Source of the DNA: Salinivenus lutea
GTDB taxonomy: Bacteria; Bacteroidota; Rhodothermia; Rhodothermales; Salinibacteraceae
Direction: 5' to 3'
Length of the DNA: 64,000 bases
Assembly (NCBI GenBank): GCA_002894685.1
Contig: NCRC01000016.1
Span: 1-64,000 of the forward strand
Notes under the pieces: generated by a model
What the model was told of the DNA's origin: nothing
What the model saw: only the letters and a program-made list of their open reading frames with translations
Databases searched by the model: none
Translations under genes and position numbers: made by a program
In this document: positions 37,675-64,000 of the stretch, piece after piece
Position numbering within the stretch: the stretch's first letter is position 1
Layout: the number at the start of each line of letters is the position of its first letter

Positions 37675-38028
37675 ATGACCGACGAGGCCTTTCGTCCCCT
37701 TGACTCCATCGCCGACTGGAATGACGCCCTGGAGCACTCCAAGCAGACCCCCGTTCTTGTATTCAAGCACAGTGCGACCTGCTCGATCAGTGCGAAGGCG
37801 AACAAGGAGATGACCACGCTCTCGAACGAAGCGGACCTTCCCATTTTCCGCGTCGTGGTGCAGGACAACCGGTCGGTGTCGGACGAAATTGCCGAGTCGC
37901 TCAACGTGCGGCACGAGACGCCCCAGGCCATCCTGATTCGGGACGAGAGCCCCATCTTTGACACGTCGCACCTCAACGTCACGGTGGACACGTTGCGGAA
38001 GGAGCTGCGTCGCACGCCCGCCGAGTAA
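37675..38028 (+). CDS. ytxJ: Bacilliredoxin-like protein YtxJ/BrxC
   Basis: 117-residue thioredoxin-fold protein of the YtxJ (BrxC) family that reduces bacillithiol-protein mixed disulfides. The single active-site Cys is C37 in VFKHSATCSIS (monothiol type, CxIS), and the cis-Pro motif is ETPQAILI. Found in bacillithiol-making Firmicutes and Bacteroidota. The ATG follows a roughly 190-base intergenic gap; next gene, a TlpA-like lipoprotein, starts 33 bases later, so they may be one redox operon. Confidence 0.9.
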   Translation: MTDEAFRPLDSIADWNDALEHSKQTPVLVFKHSATCSISAKANKEMTTLSNEADLPIFRVVVQDNRSVSDEIAESLNVRHETPQAILIRDESPIFDTSHLNVTVDTLRKELRRTPAE

Positions 38029-60024: not shown

Positions 60025-60273
60025 CTACGGGACGATCTGCTCCCCCTCCTCGTCCTCCAGGATCAGCGCATCGACCGGGCAAATGGCCGTCGACTCCTCC
60101 AGGCGCCCGGCCTCAATGTCGGGCACCTCCTCCTTGAAGTCGACGATGTTGTCCTGCCGGATCACGAAAACCTCGGGGGCCAGGTTCGTGCAGTTGCCAG
60201 AGCCGATACAGAGGGACCGGTCGATCCGGACCGTCATGCCACTGATTTCACGTTCAGGGTGCTCGTCAGCCAT
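60025..60273 (-). CDS. [3Fe-4S]-type ferredoxin
   Basis: 82 residues, acidic. Cluster motif CIGSGNC (C-x5-C, one ligand of the usual CxxCxxC replaced by Ser) plus CPVDAL, giving three cysteines, as in [3Fe-4S] ferredoxins that feed cytochrome P450s or glutamate-type enzymes. No P450 gene in this window. Convergent with the YkvA transcript. Confidence 0.88.
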   Translation of the reverse strand: MADEHPEREISGMTVRIDRSLCIGSGNCTNLAPEVFVIRQDNIVDFKEEVPDIEAGRLEESTAICPVDALILEDEEGEQIVP

Positions 60274-60398: not shown

Positions 60399-62354
60399 TC
60401 ACTCCTCCCCCTCATCCTCCTCCATCTCAACGGGTTCCAGTTCTCCCTTCAACGTATCGTCGAGCAGGTTGCCCGCAATCTGAATGAAGTCGCGCTCCGT
60501 GATGATGCCGACGAGGCGGTCCTCCCGGACCACGGGGAGCGCACCGATCTGGTGTTCACGCATCATCTGAACCGCCTCCAGGGTCGGGCGCTCGGGGGAG
60601 ACGGAAATGGGGTCCTCCACCATGATGTCGCGCACCGGGACCCCTCCTTCCGGCGTCTCGTTGCGCTCGGCCATGTGACGCAGCAGGGTGCGGTGGCTGA
60701 TGAGTCCCACGAGGCGATGCTGTTCGTCCTCCACCAGCACGTGCCGGATGCGCTGCCAGTCCATCAGTCGGGCGACAAACTCGATGGACTCCTCTTCGTG
60801 GACGGTGAACAGCTCCGTCGTCATGTAGTCCTCGACGTTGGTGTCCTGCATGGCGCTGGGGGTGTAGCCCTCCTCCAGGGTCGCCAGGGGCCACTCGTGC
60901 ACCGGCCGCCCCTCCTTCTGGCGCTCCACCATCGCCCGGGTGATGGCGCCCAGGCGCTCGGCCCGGGAGCCCACCTCCTTCATGCGCGCCAGCGAGTCGA
61001 GCTGCCACTGCGAGCCGGTCTGCTGGCTCTCCACCCGCTTCTGAATCACCCCGAGGTAGCGGTCGATGTCGGAGGAGTCGATGTCCGACGAGCGGAGCCC
61101 CGCCTCCGCACGCGGAAGAAGCGTGTCCAGGATGAGCTCGTGGGCCGGCCGCTTCGTGTCATCGAGCCAGACGAACTGGGACGCAAGCCCGTTGCGCGCC
61201 GCGGCGATGAAGTTGTGTCGCGCCTCGTCGAAGTCCATGTGCTCCGACACATCCTGGTACTCGTTGGACAGTCCGGCCACCAGCCCGTACCAGAACACCG
61301 CATTCGCGATCTCGTCGACCACCGTGGGGCCCGACGGGAGCACGCGGTTTTCGATTCGAAGGTGCGGCTTGCCGTTCGTAATGCCGTAGCAGGCCCGATT
61401 CCAGCGATACACCGTGCCGTTGTGGAGCTGGAGCGCCATCAGGTTGGGCACGCCGCCCTGCTCCAGCACGTCAAGGGGGTATTCATCAAGTTCCGTGGTC
61501 AGAAGCACGCGGAACCGGGAGATGTCCTCCTTGAAAATCTCCAGGACGGACTCGTCCACCCAGTCAGTGCCGAAGTGCACACGGGGCCGCATCTCGCGGA
61601 GGTAGAGGTTGCTCGACCGCGTGTCGACGGCCTGCTGGAAGAGCGCAATGCGCGTTTCCCGCCACAGTCGCTTGCCGAAGAGGAGGGGCGAGTTCGTCGC
61701 AGCGGCGAGACACGGCGCCGCCACCACCTGGGCGATGTTGTAGTAGTGAGGGAACTCCTCGGGCGATACCTGGAAGTGCGTCTGAAAGCTGGTGTTACAC
61801 CCTTCCAGCATGATGGAGTCATGCTTCAGGAAGAGCTCGTCGATGCCCCGAATTTGGTACTGCCCCGGCCCTCCGCGGAGGCGCGAAAGGGCGTCGTTCA
61901 GGGCGTAGTACCGGGGCCGCGGGGTCATATAGTCCAACGCAAAGTCGGACAGGTGCGCCGTGGGCAGAATCCCCGTCATGATCGGCTCGCCGCCCACCTC
62001 CTGCGTCAGCGTCCGGACCTTCTCGACCAAGGTCTCCGTGGATTGCTCCATCTGACGGAAGCACTCCCCGCCGTACTCCAGCGGGTCCATGTTGAACTCA
62101 ATGTTGAACTTCGTGAGCTCCGTGACGATGCGCTCATCGGTGTTGCGCTCGAGCACTTCCTCGATGATGGGGGCCGGCTCCCCCCGCTCGTCGATCATAA
62201 AGAGCTCCTGTTCGGCCCCGATGCGACGCACCCCCGACTCAAACATGTCCTCGTGGAGCATCAACTCCAGGGCTCGCACGTCCTGCATCAGATGGTTCGT
62301 GAACTCCCGCAGAACGGACGGATCGACCTTTCGCTTAACGTCGTGCTGACCCAT
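60399..62354 (-). CDS. GCS2-family glutamate-cysteine-ligase-like enzyme fused to CBS domains
   Basis: 651 residues. N-terminal about 470 residues resemble the GCS2 glutamate-cysteine ligase superfamily: RIGAEQELFMID (about 46), FNIEFNMDPLEYGG (about 85), LEGCNTSFQTHFQV (about 183), LRIENRVLPSGPTV (about 330). Then two CBS modules (about 506-562 and 572-626: VEDYMTTELFTV, RHVLVEDEQHRLVGLI, VRDIMVEDPISV, GALPVVREDRLVGIITERDF), which usually bind adenine nucleotides. The fusion suggests energy-sensing control of an amide-ligase-like activity. Substrate not proven. Acidic tail. Confidence 0.88.
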   Translation of the reverse strand: MGQHDVKRKVDPSVLREFTNHLMQDVRALELMLHEDMFESGVRRIGAEQELFMIDERGEPAPIIEEVLERNTDERIVTELTKFNIEFNMDPLEYGGECFRQMEQSTETLVEKVRTLTQEVGGEPIMTGILPTAHLSDFALDYMTPRPRYYALNDALSRLRGGPGQYQIRGIDELFLKHDSIMLEGCNTSFQTHFQVSPEEFPHYYNIAQVVAAPCLAAATNSPLLFGKRLWRETRIALFQQAVDTRSSNLYLREMRPRVHFGTDWVDESVLEIFKEDISRFRVLLTTELDEYPLDVLEQGGVPNLMALQLHNGTVYRWNRACYGITNGKPHLRIENRVLPSGPTVVDEIANAVFWYGLVAGLSNEYQDVSEHMDFDEARHNFIAAARNGLASQFVWLDDTKRPAHELILDTLLPRAEAGLRSSDIDSSDIDRYLGVIQKRVESQQTGSQWQLDSLARMKEVGSRAERLGAITRAMVERQKEGRPVHEWPLATLEEGYTPSAMQDTNVEDYMTTELFTVHEEESIEFVARLMDWQRIRHVLVEDEQHRLVGLISHRTLLRHMAERNETPEGGVPVRDIMVEDPISVSPERPTLEAVQMMREHQIGALPVVREDRLVGIITERDFIQIAGNLLDDTLKGELEPVEMEEDEGEE

Positions 62355-62819
62355 GGATGGTTCGTCGTTTTGGAGAAGCTATCCGCAAGCCCGTGACACC
62401 CTGTCCGCCACCGGCCTATCGTTTATCAAAAGCGCCACCAGAGAGTGGAAGAAAGCAAACGACCCGAGGTGTGATCTTCAAATATTGATGAACGCCACGC
62501 ACCCTACATCAGAAACCTCACGACGCGCGTCCTCGTTCCGCGGGGCGCAGGTTTTGGTGGAGAAGCACCGCATCGTTCCGCGGGCCGGGTGCCTCCTGTG
62601 CCTCAGGGTCAGACGTGGACGGGTGTGTCGCCGCGGTGCCCCCGCCTCCAGGCCGCCCTTCACTCCCCGCCCCCGTCGCCTCGGGCTCTAGCTCGGGACC
62701 GGACGGTGGGGCGCCGCGTGAGGATCTTTCCCGCACGGCGGTGTCGGTTGAGGGGAGAGGAGCATCCCGCAGTGAGATCGCAGGGCCTTCGTCGTTCGTT
62801 TCAGATTGATTTCCCGTTT
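62355..62819. other. Intergenic region with likely divergent promoters
   Basis: 465 bases between the CBS-fusion gene and the lipoprotein gene. The stretch near 62420-62500 is AT-richer than the rest and suits promoters. Short ORFs on both strands have low-complexity translations and are not called. No repeat or RNA gene recognised. Confidence 0.3.
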
Positions 62820-63608
62820 GTGATTGCCTCCCGCTTACGAGTCTCCCTCTTTGCCCTTCTGCTCCTGGTCGGTGGGTTCTTCGCGACCGGCTGTGGGGGG
62901 CCGTCCGCGGCGACTGCCCCCACCCTTCCGAGCGGGTTTCCCAATCACACCCCGGCGCAGATGAACGCCCTCATCACGGCGTCGGGAGACTCGCTGCACA
63001 GCTACTCGGCCGAGGCCCGAGTGACCGTCCGCACCCCCTCCCGCAATCGATCGTTCAACGCCGACCTGCGCCAGCGGAGGGCCGACTCGCTCTTCATGCG
63101 GGTCAGTCTGTTTGGCGTCGAAGGCGGACGGCTCCTCCTCACCCCCGACAGCGTCCTGTTCTACGACAGCCGAAGTCGGGTGCTGCGCACCGGCCCCCTC
63201 GCCGACGCCCAGGAACTACTCCCGGCTCCGGTCAACTCGGGACAGATCTTCGAAAACATGCTGGGGCTCCTGTCGCCCTCTCAGTCCCGAGACTGGTCCG
63301 TTGAGACCGACAGCTCGCAGTACTTCCTGTCCACCGGCAACACGGACACCCGCATGATCGTGGACCCGACGCGCTGGCGCGTGGTCCGCTACACACGGGA
63401 AAACGAAAACGGGACCGTCGTCGATGAACGGCTGTTTACCGACTTCCAGAGCGTCGAGGGCGTGCTGATTCCGCACCGCGTCATCTTTCGGCGGCCGCCG
63501 GACGACCTCATGGCGATGATTCAATACCGGGACATGAACCTAAATCCCAACGGATTGTCTTTTGAGTTAGGCGTTCCCTCGTCGGTCCCCCGCAAGCCCC
63601 TTCGCTAA
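62820..63608 (+). CDS. DUF4292-like outer-membrane lipoprotein
   Basis: 262 residues from GTG 62820. Signal peptide with lipobox FATGC. Beta-rich mature region (LHSYSAEARVTVRTPSRNR, ADSLFMRVSLFGVEGGRLLLTPD, NTDTRMIVDPTRWRVVRYT) resembles the LolA/LolB-like fold of DUF4292 lipoproteins common in Bacteroidota. The start is GTG because no ATG precedes the signal peptide. An EnvC-like gene starts 21 bases downstream, a frequent arrangement in Bacteroidota. Confidence 0.8.
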   Translation: MIASRLRVSLFALLLLVGGFFATGCGGPSAATAPTLPSGFPNHTPAQMNALITASGDSLHSYSAEARVTVRTPSRNRSFNADLRQRRADSLFMRVSLFGVEGGRLLLTPDSVLFYDSRSRVLRTGPLADAQELLPAPVNSGQIFENMLGLLSPSQSRDWSVETDSSQYFLSTGNTDTRMIVDPTRWRVVRYTRENENGTVVDERLFTDFQSVEGVLIPHRVIFRRPPDDLMAMIQYRDMNLNPNGLSFELGVPSSVPRKPLR

Positions 63609-63629: not shown

Positions 63630-64000
63630 ATGACTGGCCTGGTCTCTCCGTTCTTCTGCTCTTCCCGGACGCTCGTCCTCGTCCCCCTGCTACTGATGGC
63701 AGCGGGCGGCCCCCTCCGCGCCCAAGACGACCCCGAGGACCGGCGCTCCGCCACGCAGCAGCGTCTCCAGACGCTCCAGAAGCAGATCCAACAGCAACAA
63801 CAGCGGCTCCAAAAAACCGCCGAGGCCGCCGAGTCGAGCCAGCAGCGACTGGACGAACTGCAGCGCGAGATTGCCCTGCGCGAAGAACTCGTCGCCACCT
63901 ACCAGCAGCGCCTGCGCCAACTCAAGGGCGAGCGCCAGCAGGTACAGGACACGCTCCAAACGCTTCAGGACCGGCTCGATGCCCTCCGGAACGAGTACCA
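63630..64000 (+). CDS. EnvC-like peptidoglycan-hydrolase activator, truncated at edge
   Basis: First 123 codons visible. Signal peptide (LVLVPLLLMAAGGPLRAQ), then an uninterrupted Gln/Glu-rich coiled coil (RLQTLQKQIQQQQQRLQK and repeats) typical of EnvC/NlpD-like proteins, whose C-terminal M23 domain would lie past 64000. Activates cell-division amidases. Partial at the window edge. Confidence 0.8.
   Translation, partial: MTGLVSPFFCSSRTLVLVPLLLMAAGGPLRAQDDPEDRRSATQQRLQTLQKQIQQQQQRLQKTAEAAESSQQRLDELQREIALREELVATYQQRLRQLKGERQQVQDTLQTLQDRLDALRNEY

Follow-up and report, generated by a model that had tools for sequence, protein, structure and literature searches.

In the window, by which we mean the whole stretch of 64,000 nucleotides of Salinivenus lutea DNA that was analysed, we found one gene that joins a GCS2-type ligase to a C-terminal pair of CBS domains, and in many of the relatives compared this ligase gene is followed directly by a gene for an AstE/AspA-type hydrolase. 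The assignment of the enzyme class (GCS2/YbdK-type ligase) is well supported. On balance we favour, with somewhat better than even confidence, the reading that the protein is an ATP/Mg-dependent ligase which would be gated by the energy state of the cell through CBS2, and whose product would be cut by the AstE/AspA hydrolase in the relatives.

In the list of open reading frames the gene is a single frame of 651 amino acids that starts with ATG. It is located in the window, together with its parts and its neighbours, as follows.

60399..62354, minus strand: GCS2-CBS fusion gene (ORF, Pfam, relatives in other genomes)
60885..62354, minus strand: ligase part, residues 1-490, GCS2/YbdK-type carboxylate-amine ligase fold (Pfam, alignment, predicted structure)
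62205..62219, minus strand: GAEQE, residues 46-50, GhExE-type Mg/ATP signature, corresponding to YbdK G15, E17 and E19 (alignment)
60666..60845, minus strand: CBS1, about residues 504-563, with the motif GLISHRT without Asp/Asn (Pfam, motif count)
60471..60644, minus strand: CBS2, about residues 571-628 (Pfam, motif count)
60489..60509, minus strand: GIITERD, residues 616-622, canonical adenosine (ribose) motif of CBS2 (motif count)
60025-60273, same strand as the fusion gene and directly downstream of it: 4Fe-4S ferredoxin of 82 aa (ORF list, domain scan)
62589-63608, divergent from the fusion gene: DUF4292 protein (domain scan)
63630-63998, divergent from the fusion gene: EnvC-like coiled-coil protein (by eye)

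Pfam placed PF04107 (GCS2) on residues 46-242 with 30 bits against a cut-off of 21, and PF00571 (CBS) on two stretches in the C-terminal part of the same chain with 99.5 bits against a cut-off of 24; with both families over their cut-offs, the original prediction of a GCS2-type domain and paired CBS domains in one chain of this length and position proved correct. The GCS2 profile covers residues 46-242 only, and the ligase domain is longer than this match because the modelled fold extends to about residue 480. No other PF04107 match was found in the genome. The fusion is not a chance reading frame or an assembly join, since relatives in 71 other genomes of the 296 surveyed match over both the ligase and the CBS parts; the nearest of five loci in genome_contigs, from Salinivenus iranica CB7, is 99% identical. 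As to the start codon, G2 occurs in 90% or more of the aligned rows and favours the annotated start, while M1 is no evidence for it, the starts of the relatives having been set to the nearest Met.

A structure model was built from an alignment of 38 sequences, the window protein included, and reached a mean pLDDT of 91.1 and a pTM of 0.89. Residues 25-480 superpose on YbdK and on the plant and yeast glutamate-cysteine ligases, by VIA-align and also by Foldseek. The best structural match in VIA-align was E. coli YbdK 1tt4 (Z 36.0, rmsd 2.4, 344 of its 354 residues aligned), and a second YbdK structure, 1r8g, gave Z 35.4. The plant enzyme 2gwc gave Z 31.2 and the yeast enzyme 3ig5 Z 28.6; E. coli GshA was near Z 20, and Dop and PafA were at Z 18.4 to 19.4.

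Through profile-profile comparison with YbdK as a single sequence no useful alignment was obtained (probability 0.3%), and the MAFFT multiple alignment was used instead, of which the register is uncertain outside the core motifs. Among the invariant positions of the 38 rows are G46, E48, E50, E79, N84, E86, Q191, H193, Q195, N206 and W231, and also E233, R235, R258, W318, N319, R320, H331, R333, E335 and R337. Residues identical to YbdK are G46, E48 and E50 (G15, E17 and E19), E86 (E60), H193 (H136), R235 (R182), W318 (W225), R320 (R228), and E335 and R337 (E237 and R239), and E79 falls on D53. Since the core glutamates, histidine and arginines coincide with those of E. coli YbdK and vary in none of the 38 aligned sequences, the fusion protein is likely a working ATP-dependent carboxylate-amine ligase. 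The predicted ligase nature of the N-terminal domain is borne out by profile, fold and core residues alike, and no assignment to a non-ligase family was obtained. Other invariant positions differ from YbdK, e.g. N206 on H152, W231 on F178 and R333 on T235, and these set the ligase apart as its own subfamily. It also differs from YbdK in overall identity (14%), in a ligase part longer by about 120 residues and in the C-terminal CBS pair.

A passage of PMC2588565 gives as the marks of the superfamily GhExE in strand 1, acidic residues in strands 2 and 3, [HD]x[NH] in strand 4, Ex[RK]x2D in strand 6 and two arginines. The GhExE motif and the acidic strand residues that follow it are present as the invariant G46, E48, E50, E79 and E86. 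With the register taken from MAFFT alone, H193 of the [HD]x[NH] mark lies on YbdK H136 but Q195 on H138, and for Q191xH193 to agree with the PafA form [HQ]x[NH] the alignment would have to be shifted by two. In the Ex[RK]x2D mark, with the register again from MAFFT alone, E335 and R337 are invariant and P340 is located where YbdK has D242. The differences at Q195 and P340 may reflect a different substrate, or a misalignment.

No ligase model came close to its cut-off in an NCBIfam scan of the protein, the nearest being TIGR02050 (YbdK) with 17.5 bits against 176.4, and the glutamate-cysteine ligase models stayed far under theirs (16.6 bits against 409). In a profile search of PDB sequences, the 60 rows shown of 146 match through the CBS region. 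For these two reasons the substrate of the ligase is not readable from its kin.

Residues 501-636 of the model match AcuB (2o16, Z 19.1, 36% identity) and many other CBS pairs in VIA-align. The structural matches of this region include AcuB complexes with AMP, ADP and ATP, the SAM/MTA-binding MJ0100, the c-di-AMP-binding DarB and the Mg transporter MgtE. With the whole protein as query the best CBS match is an AcuB protein, by sequence and by fold, and identity to AcuB-type Bateman domains reaches 38% over the CBS pair; when the CBS part is searched by itself, the top match is MJ1225. The adenosine (ribose) motif of CBS domains, which we take to be G-h-h-T/S-x-x-D/N, reads GIITERD in CBS2, and its counterpart in CBS1 (GLISHRT, residues 550-556) lacks the final Asp/Asn. 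The pattern G-x-x-T/S-x-x-D/N is kept by CBS2 in 31 of the 33 fused rows, by CBS1 in five and by both in five. The nucleotide-binding residues that the original prediction expected in the CBS pair are thus kept in CBS2 and missing in CBS1. Since the motif survives in CBS2 and rarely in CBS1, the CBS pair would be expected to take up one adenine nucleotide per chain.

PMC13121692 describes the AcuB Bateman domain as a sensor of the energy state that takes adenine nucleotides at two sites in each chain. By the same source, B. subtilis AcuB differs from the fusion protein in being a stand-alone regulator with an ACT domain that takes two nucleotides per chain; CBS1 of the fusion protein, unlike AcuB, is without the Asp/Asn. 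An IRH segment of the fusion protein aligns with V. cholerae AcuB, and by inference it would be the counterpart of Arg33/His34, the residues located at the phosphates in B. subtilis AcuB. Allosteric control of the ligase by the CBS pair, as predicted, is plausible. In one genome of family f2 (L052:6977-8833) CBS2 has a degenerate motif (GMLTRAE) shortly before the end of the protein, as if the sensor were decaying.

The GCS2-CBS architecture, for which a search across the phylum had been proposed, was looked for in 296 genomes sampled from the phylum; the matches were counted by hand and the lists screened for duplicates. As at most four candidates were scored per genome, the counts are possibly slightly low. 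A match over both ligase and CBS parts was found in 72 genomes including that of the window (71 in one piece, G293 in two pieces), and the fusion is no oddity. In 16 further genomes, all of family f23, the match stops near residue 490, short of the CBS pair, and the six of these that were opened have frames of 477-479 aa from the start that fits the family. Some of the matches containing a stop codon were inspected, and three of them have complete frames, of 639 aa (L050), 617 aa (L070) and 616 aa (L071).

No record of the plasmid collection covers 80% of the fusion protein. Three actinobacterial records match residues 16-490 only, and in the two annotated ones, whose sequences were included in the alignment, the gene ends there. 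These genes, named 'glutamate-cysteine ligase family protein' on plasmids of Streptomyces fungicidicus and Tsukamurella tyrosinosolvens, have 37-38% identity with the fusion protein and share its invariant residues; unlike it, they end where the CBS pair would begin. No AstE/AspA gene was found within 8 kb of them in a gene table that is incomplete, and we know of no tested function for these ligases. Because the ligase exists without CBS domains, in f23 and in the Actinomycetota plasmid records, the CBS pair would be dispensable for the reaction.

A tree of 40 ligase domains separates the 33 fused from the 7 unfused rows, with support of 100/99 for the branch between them; this fits a single fusion event, with the unfused rows being long branches that meet, as flagged by the program, and the root set by midpoint only. 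Of the six matching g26 genomes, all but G235 (G108, G119, G171, G203 and G266) carry two ligase copies in tandem, and so does G211 of g28. At L056, L079, L080 and L082 (from G108, G171, G211 and G203) tandem GCS2-CBS genes are followed by an AstE/AspA gene. For the first copy in G171, a frame of 487 aa, the match is limited to residues 2-276 and 435-631, as though the ligase domain had lost an inner part. Through the scan of viral_contigs one relative was found, on an IMG/VR contig of 37,321 bases that ends in a truncated unfused ligase (L095:4001-4954); its final 111 bases repeat, exactly and in reverse complement, a stretch near base 1545 of the locus, and this points to an assembly artefact of the fold-back kind.

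The neighbourhood of the ligase was compared in 41 stretches, composed of 40 chosen stretches of about 10 to 18 kb from matched genomes and the window. A cluster of proteins of about 390 aa was present in 21 of them (single linkage, E below 1e-8). It belongs to the AstE/AspA type of zinc amidohydrolases, the two members scanned reaching 59.9 and 75.9 bits for PF24827 against a cut-off of 25; unlike AstE and aspartoacylase proper, the four members scanned with the NCBIfam models for these enzymes were below both cut-offs. The HxxE, DxNR, DxH and ExG positions, presumably zinc and substrate residues, are kept in all 22 aligned sequences (the 21 cluster members and a homologue of 272 aa from the window's genome), and HGNE, DxNR and DxH agree with E. 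coli AstE, which carries HGNE, DMNR and DLHT. In 20 of the 41 stretches the gene comes next downstream of the ligase, on the same strand, and the two genes overlap or are separated by up to 25 bases when the longest frames are taken; L073, read by hand, brings the count to 21. It accompanies the fused ligase in f14, f26 and one of three f34 genomes and the unfused ligase in f23; in the f29, f13 and f48 stretches and in the window's order it is not adjacent.

With one cluster member as query against the same 296 genomes at E 1e-6, a threshold that the divergent f23 hydrolases do not reach, the hydrolase was found in 48 genomes, and 46 of these carry the GCS2-CBS fusion (exceptions G053 and G273). 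The two genes are adjacent in 41 of the 46, with 12-184 bases between matches (35 of 35 in f14, five in f26 and one in f34), and unlinked in the other five, all of f29. Fisher's exact test for the co-occurrence gave p 1e-32 over the 296 genomes, with common descent ignored.

In the window no AstE/AspA gene is directly downstream of the ligase, and the ferredoxin gene is located there instead. The relatives' hydrolase as query gave no match in the window's genome at E 1e-3 and a partial match (E 3e-4 to 7e-4) in seven of 100 relatives, all of the window's genus or family, and a PF04952 search of the window's genome revealed no AstE/AspA protein. One distant AstE/AspA homologue was found in this genome through PF24827, the protein of 272 aa mentioned above (L099:5989-6807, contig C31 of G000). 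It is unlinked to the ligase and carries the conserved hydrolase motifs, and the nearest model, that of aspartoacylase, gave 50.3 bits against a cut-off of 180. None of the 48 genomes with the hydrolase belongs to the window's order, and the operon argument is therefore transferred from the relatives. The ferredoxin was rejected as a partner; its tblastn matches beside the ligase were, among the loci compared, in close kin and G179 only. Several genomes of the order show a similar arrangement of the DUF4292 and EnvC-like genes, frequently with a TPR protein in between. These three neighbours were also rejected as partners: they are common to several genomes of the order but divergent, on the opposite strand.

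The mechanism that we infer, from ligase activity and substrates to the bound nucleotide, the direction of regulation and the metabolite shared by both enzymes, would run as follows. The fusion protein, with its glutamine-synthetase fold, would phosphorylate a carboxylate, most likely the gamma-carboxylate of glutamate, and join the activated carboxylate to the amino group of an alpha-amino acid. The CBS pair would bind one adenine nucleotide through the CBS2 motif, and the energy charge (AMP versus ATP) would set the ligase activity. In the relatives the AstE/AspA-type zinc hydrolase of the next gene would cut the product, which may be a gamma-glutamyl or N-acyl amino acid of the kind cleaved by such hydrolases, and the two would act as a make-and-break pair on one amide metabolite. 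The window's own genome might have the distant unlinked homologue as its hydrolase, or none at all.

Thiol synthesis is the other role to be weighed, and the original prediction named YtxJ and OsmC in the window as belonging to thiol redox. YtxJ, which we take to be BrxC (PF11009), is indeed present in the window, in a gene at 37696-37995 about 22 kb from the fusion gene, and the genome contains a strong BshC match (358 bits). With BshC and BrxC taken as bacillithiol markers, the organism probably uses bacillithiol, so that the thiol link of the fusion gene is weak. A glutathione synthetase (GSH-S_ATP, PF02955) gave no match at E 1e-3 in this genome, which is 99.59% complete, while nine of 14 control genomes match, and the product of the fusion protein is probably not glutathione. 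The thiol pathway was dropped as the context, the BshC, BrxC and GshB families pointing to bacillithiol, and was kept as a rival reading only. In that reading the protein would be a glutamate-cysteine ligase proper that makes gamma-glutamylcysteine as a low-molecular-weight thiol, as in haloarchaea, with the CBS pair sensing energy or SAM and balancing the use of cysteine. The fold is common to true glutamate-cysteine ligases such as the plant enzyme, YbdK has glutamate-cysteine ligase activity (by the title of Lehmann 2004, cited in PMC2588565), and gamma-glutamylcysteine is a major thiol of halobacteria according to a title cited in PMC3102087. However, the two bacillithiol families without GSH-S_ATP, the distance of BrxC, the AstE/AspA-type hydrolase as the conserved partner in relatives and the low scores of the NCBIfam glutamate-cysteine ligase models argue against a thiol role, and we consider it unlikely.

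The CBS pair might also be structural or dimerising, or sense SAM, c-di-AMP, Mg or ionic strength, and the ligase would then not be energy-gated. The motif is lost from CBS1 in 28 of the 33 fused rows and from CBS2 in two, and MJ0100, DarB and MgtE are among the structural matches; we find this doubtful, as CBS2 keeps its motif in nearly all rows and the best whole-protein CBS match, AcuB, binds AMP, ADP and ATP. Very improbable, in our estimate, is a protein- or peptide-modifying amidoligase of PafA/Dop kind, which would put glutamate or a peptide tag on a macromolecule, to be taken off by AstE/AspA in the relatives. The structural matches do include Dop and PafA, and the superfamily motifs are common to these too (PMC2588565), but YbdK and the eukaryotic glutamate-cysteine ligases score far higher (Z 28.6 to 36.0). 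No conserved Pup-like neighbour was found among the clusters listed, which cover ORFs of at least 60 aa. Moreover, AstE/AspA enzymes act on small N-acyl amino acids.

No description of a GCS2-CBS fusion or of a ligase-hydrolase pair was found in the literature as judged by title and start of abstract, with broad searches covered in part, and an earlier description is possible; one passage of PMC4431377 concerns linked ligases in general.

The pairing with the hydrolase in relatives is the most useful new fact, for the recurring AstE/AspA gene confines the search to metabolites which are formed as well as cut. More tentatively, and with less confidence than in the mechanism itself, we might speculate on a two-enzyme system of Bacteroidota and neighbours in which the energy-gated ligase and the hydrolase form and cleave a new gamma-glutamyl or N-acyl amino acid. 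This compound could be a reserve or protectant that is made only at a permissive adenylate charge, and in the halophilic Rhodothermales the hydrolase arm may have been lost or replaced by the distant AstE/AspA gene. If the preferred reading is true, a ligase of the glutamate-cysteine ligase class with a covalent nucleotide sensor across much of the phylum would directly exemplify amide synthesis under energy control, and a poorly annotated gene pair of many Bacteroidota would thereby become directly testable.
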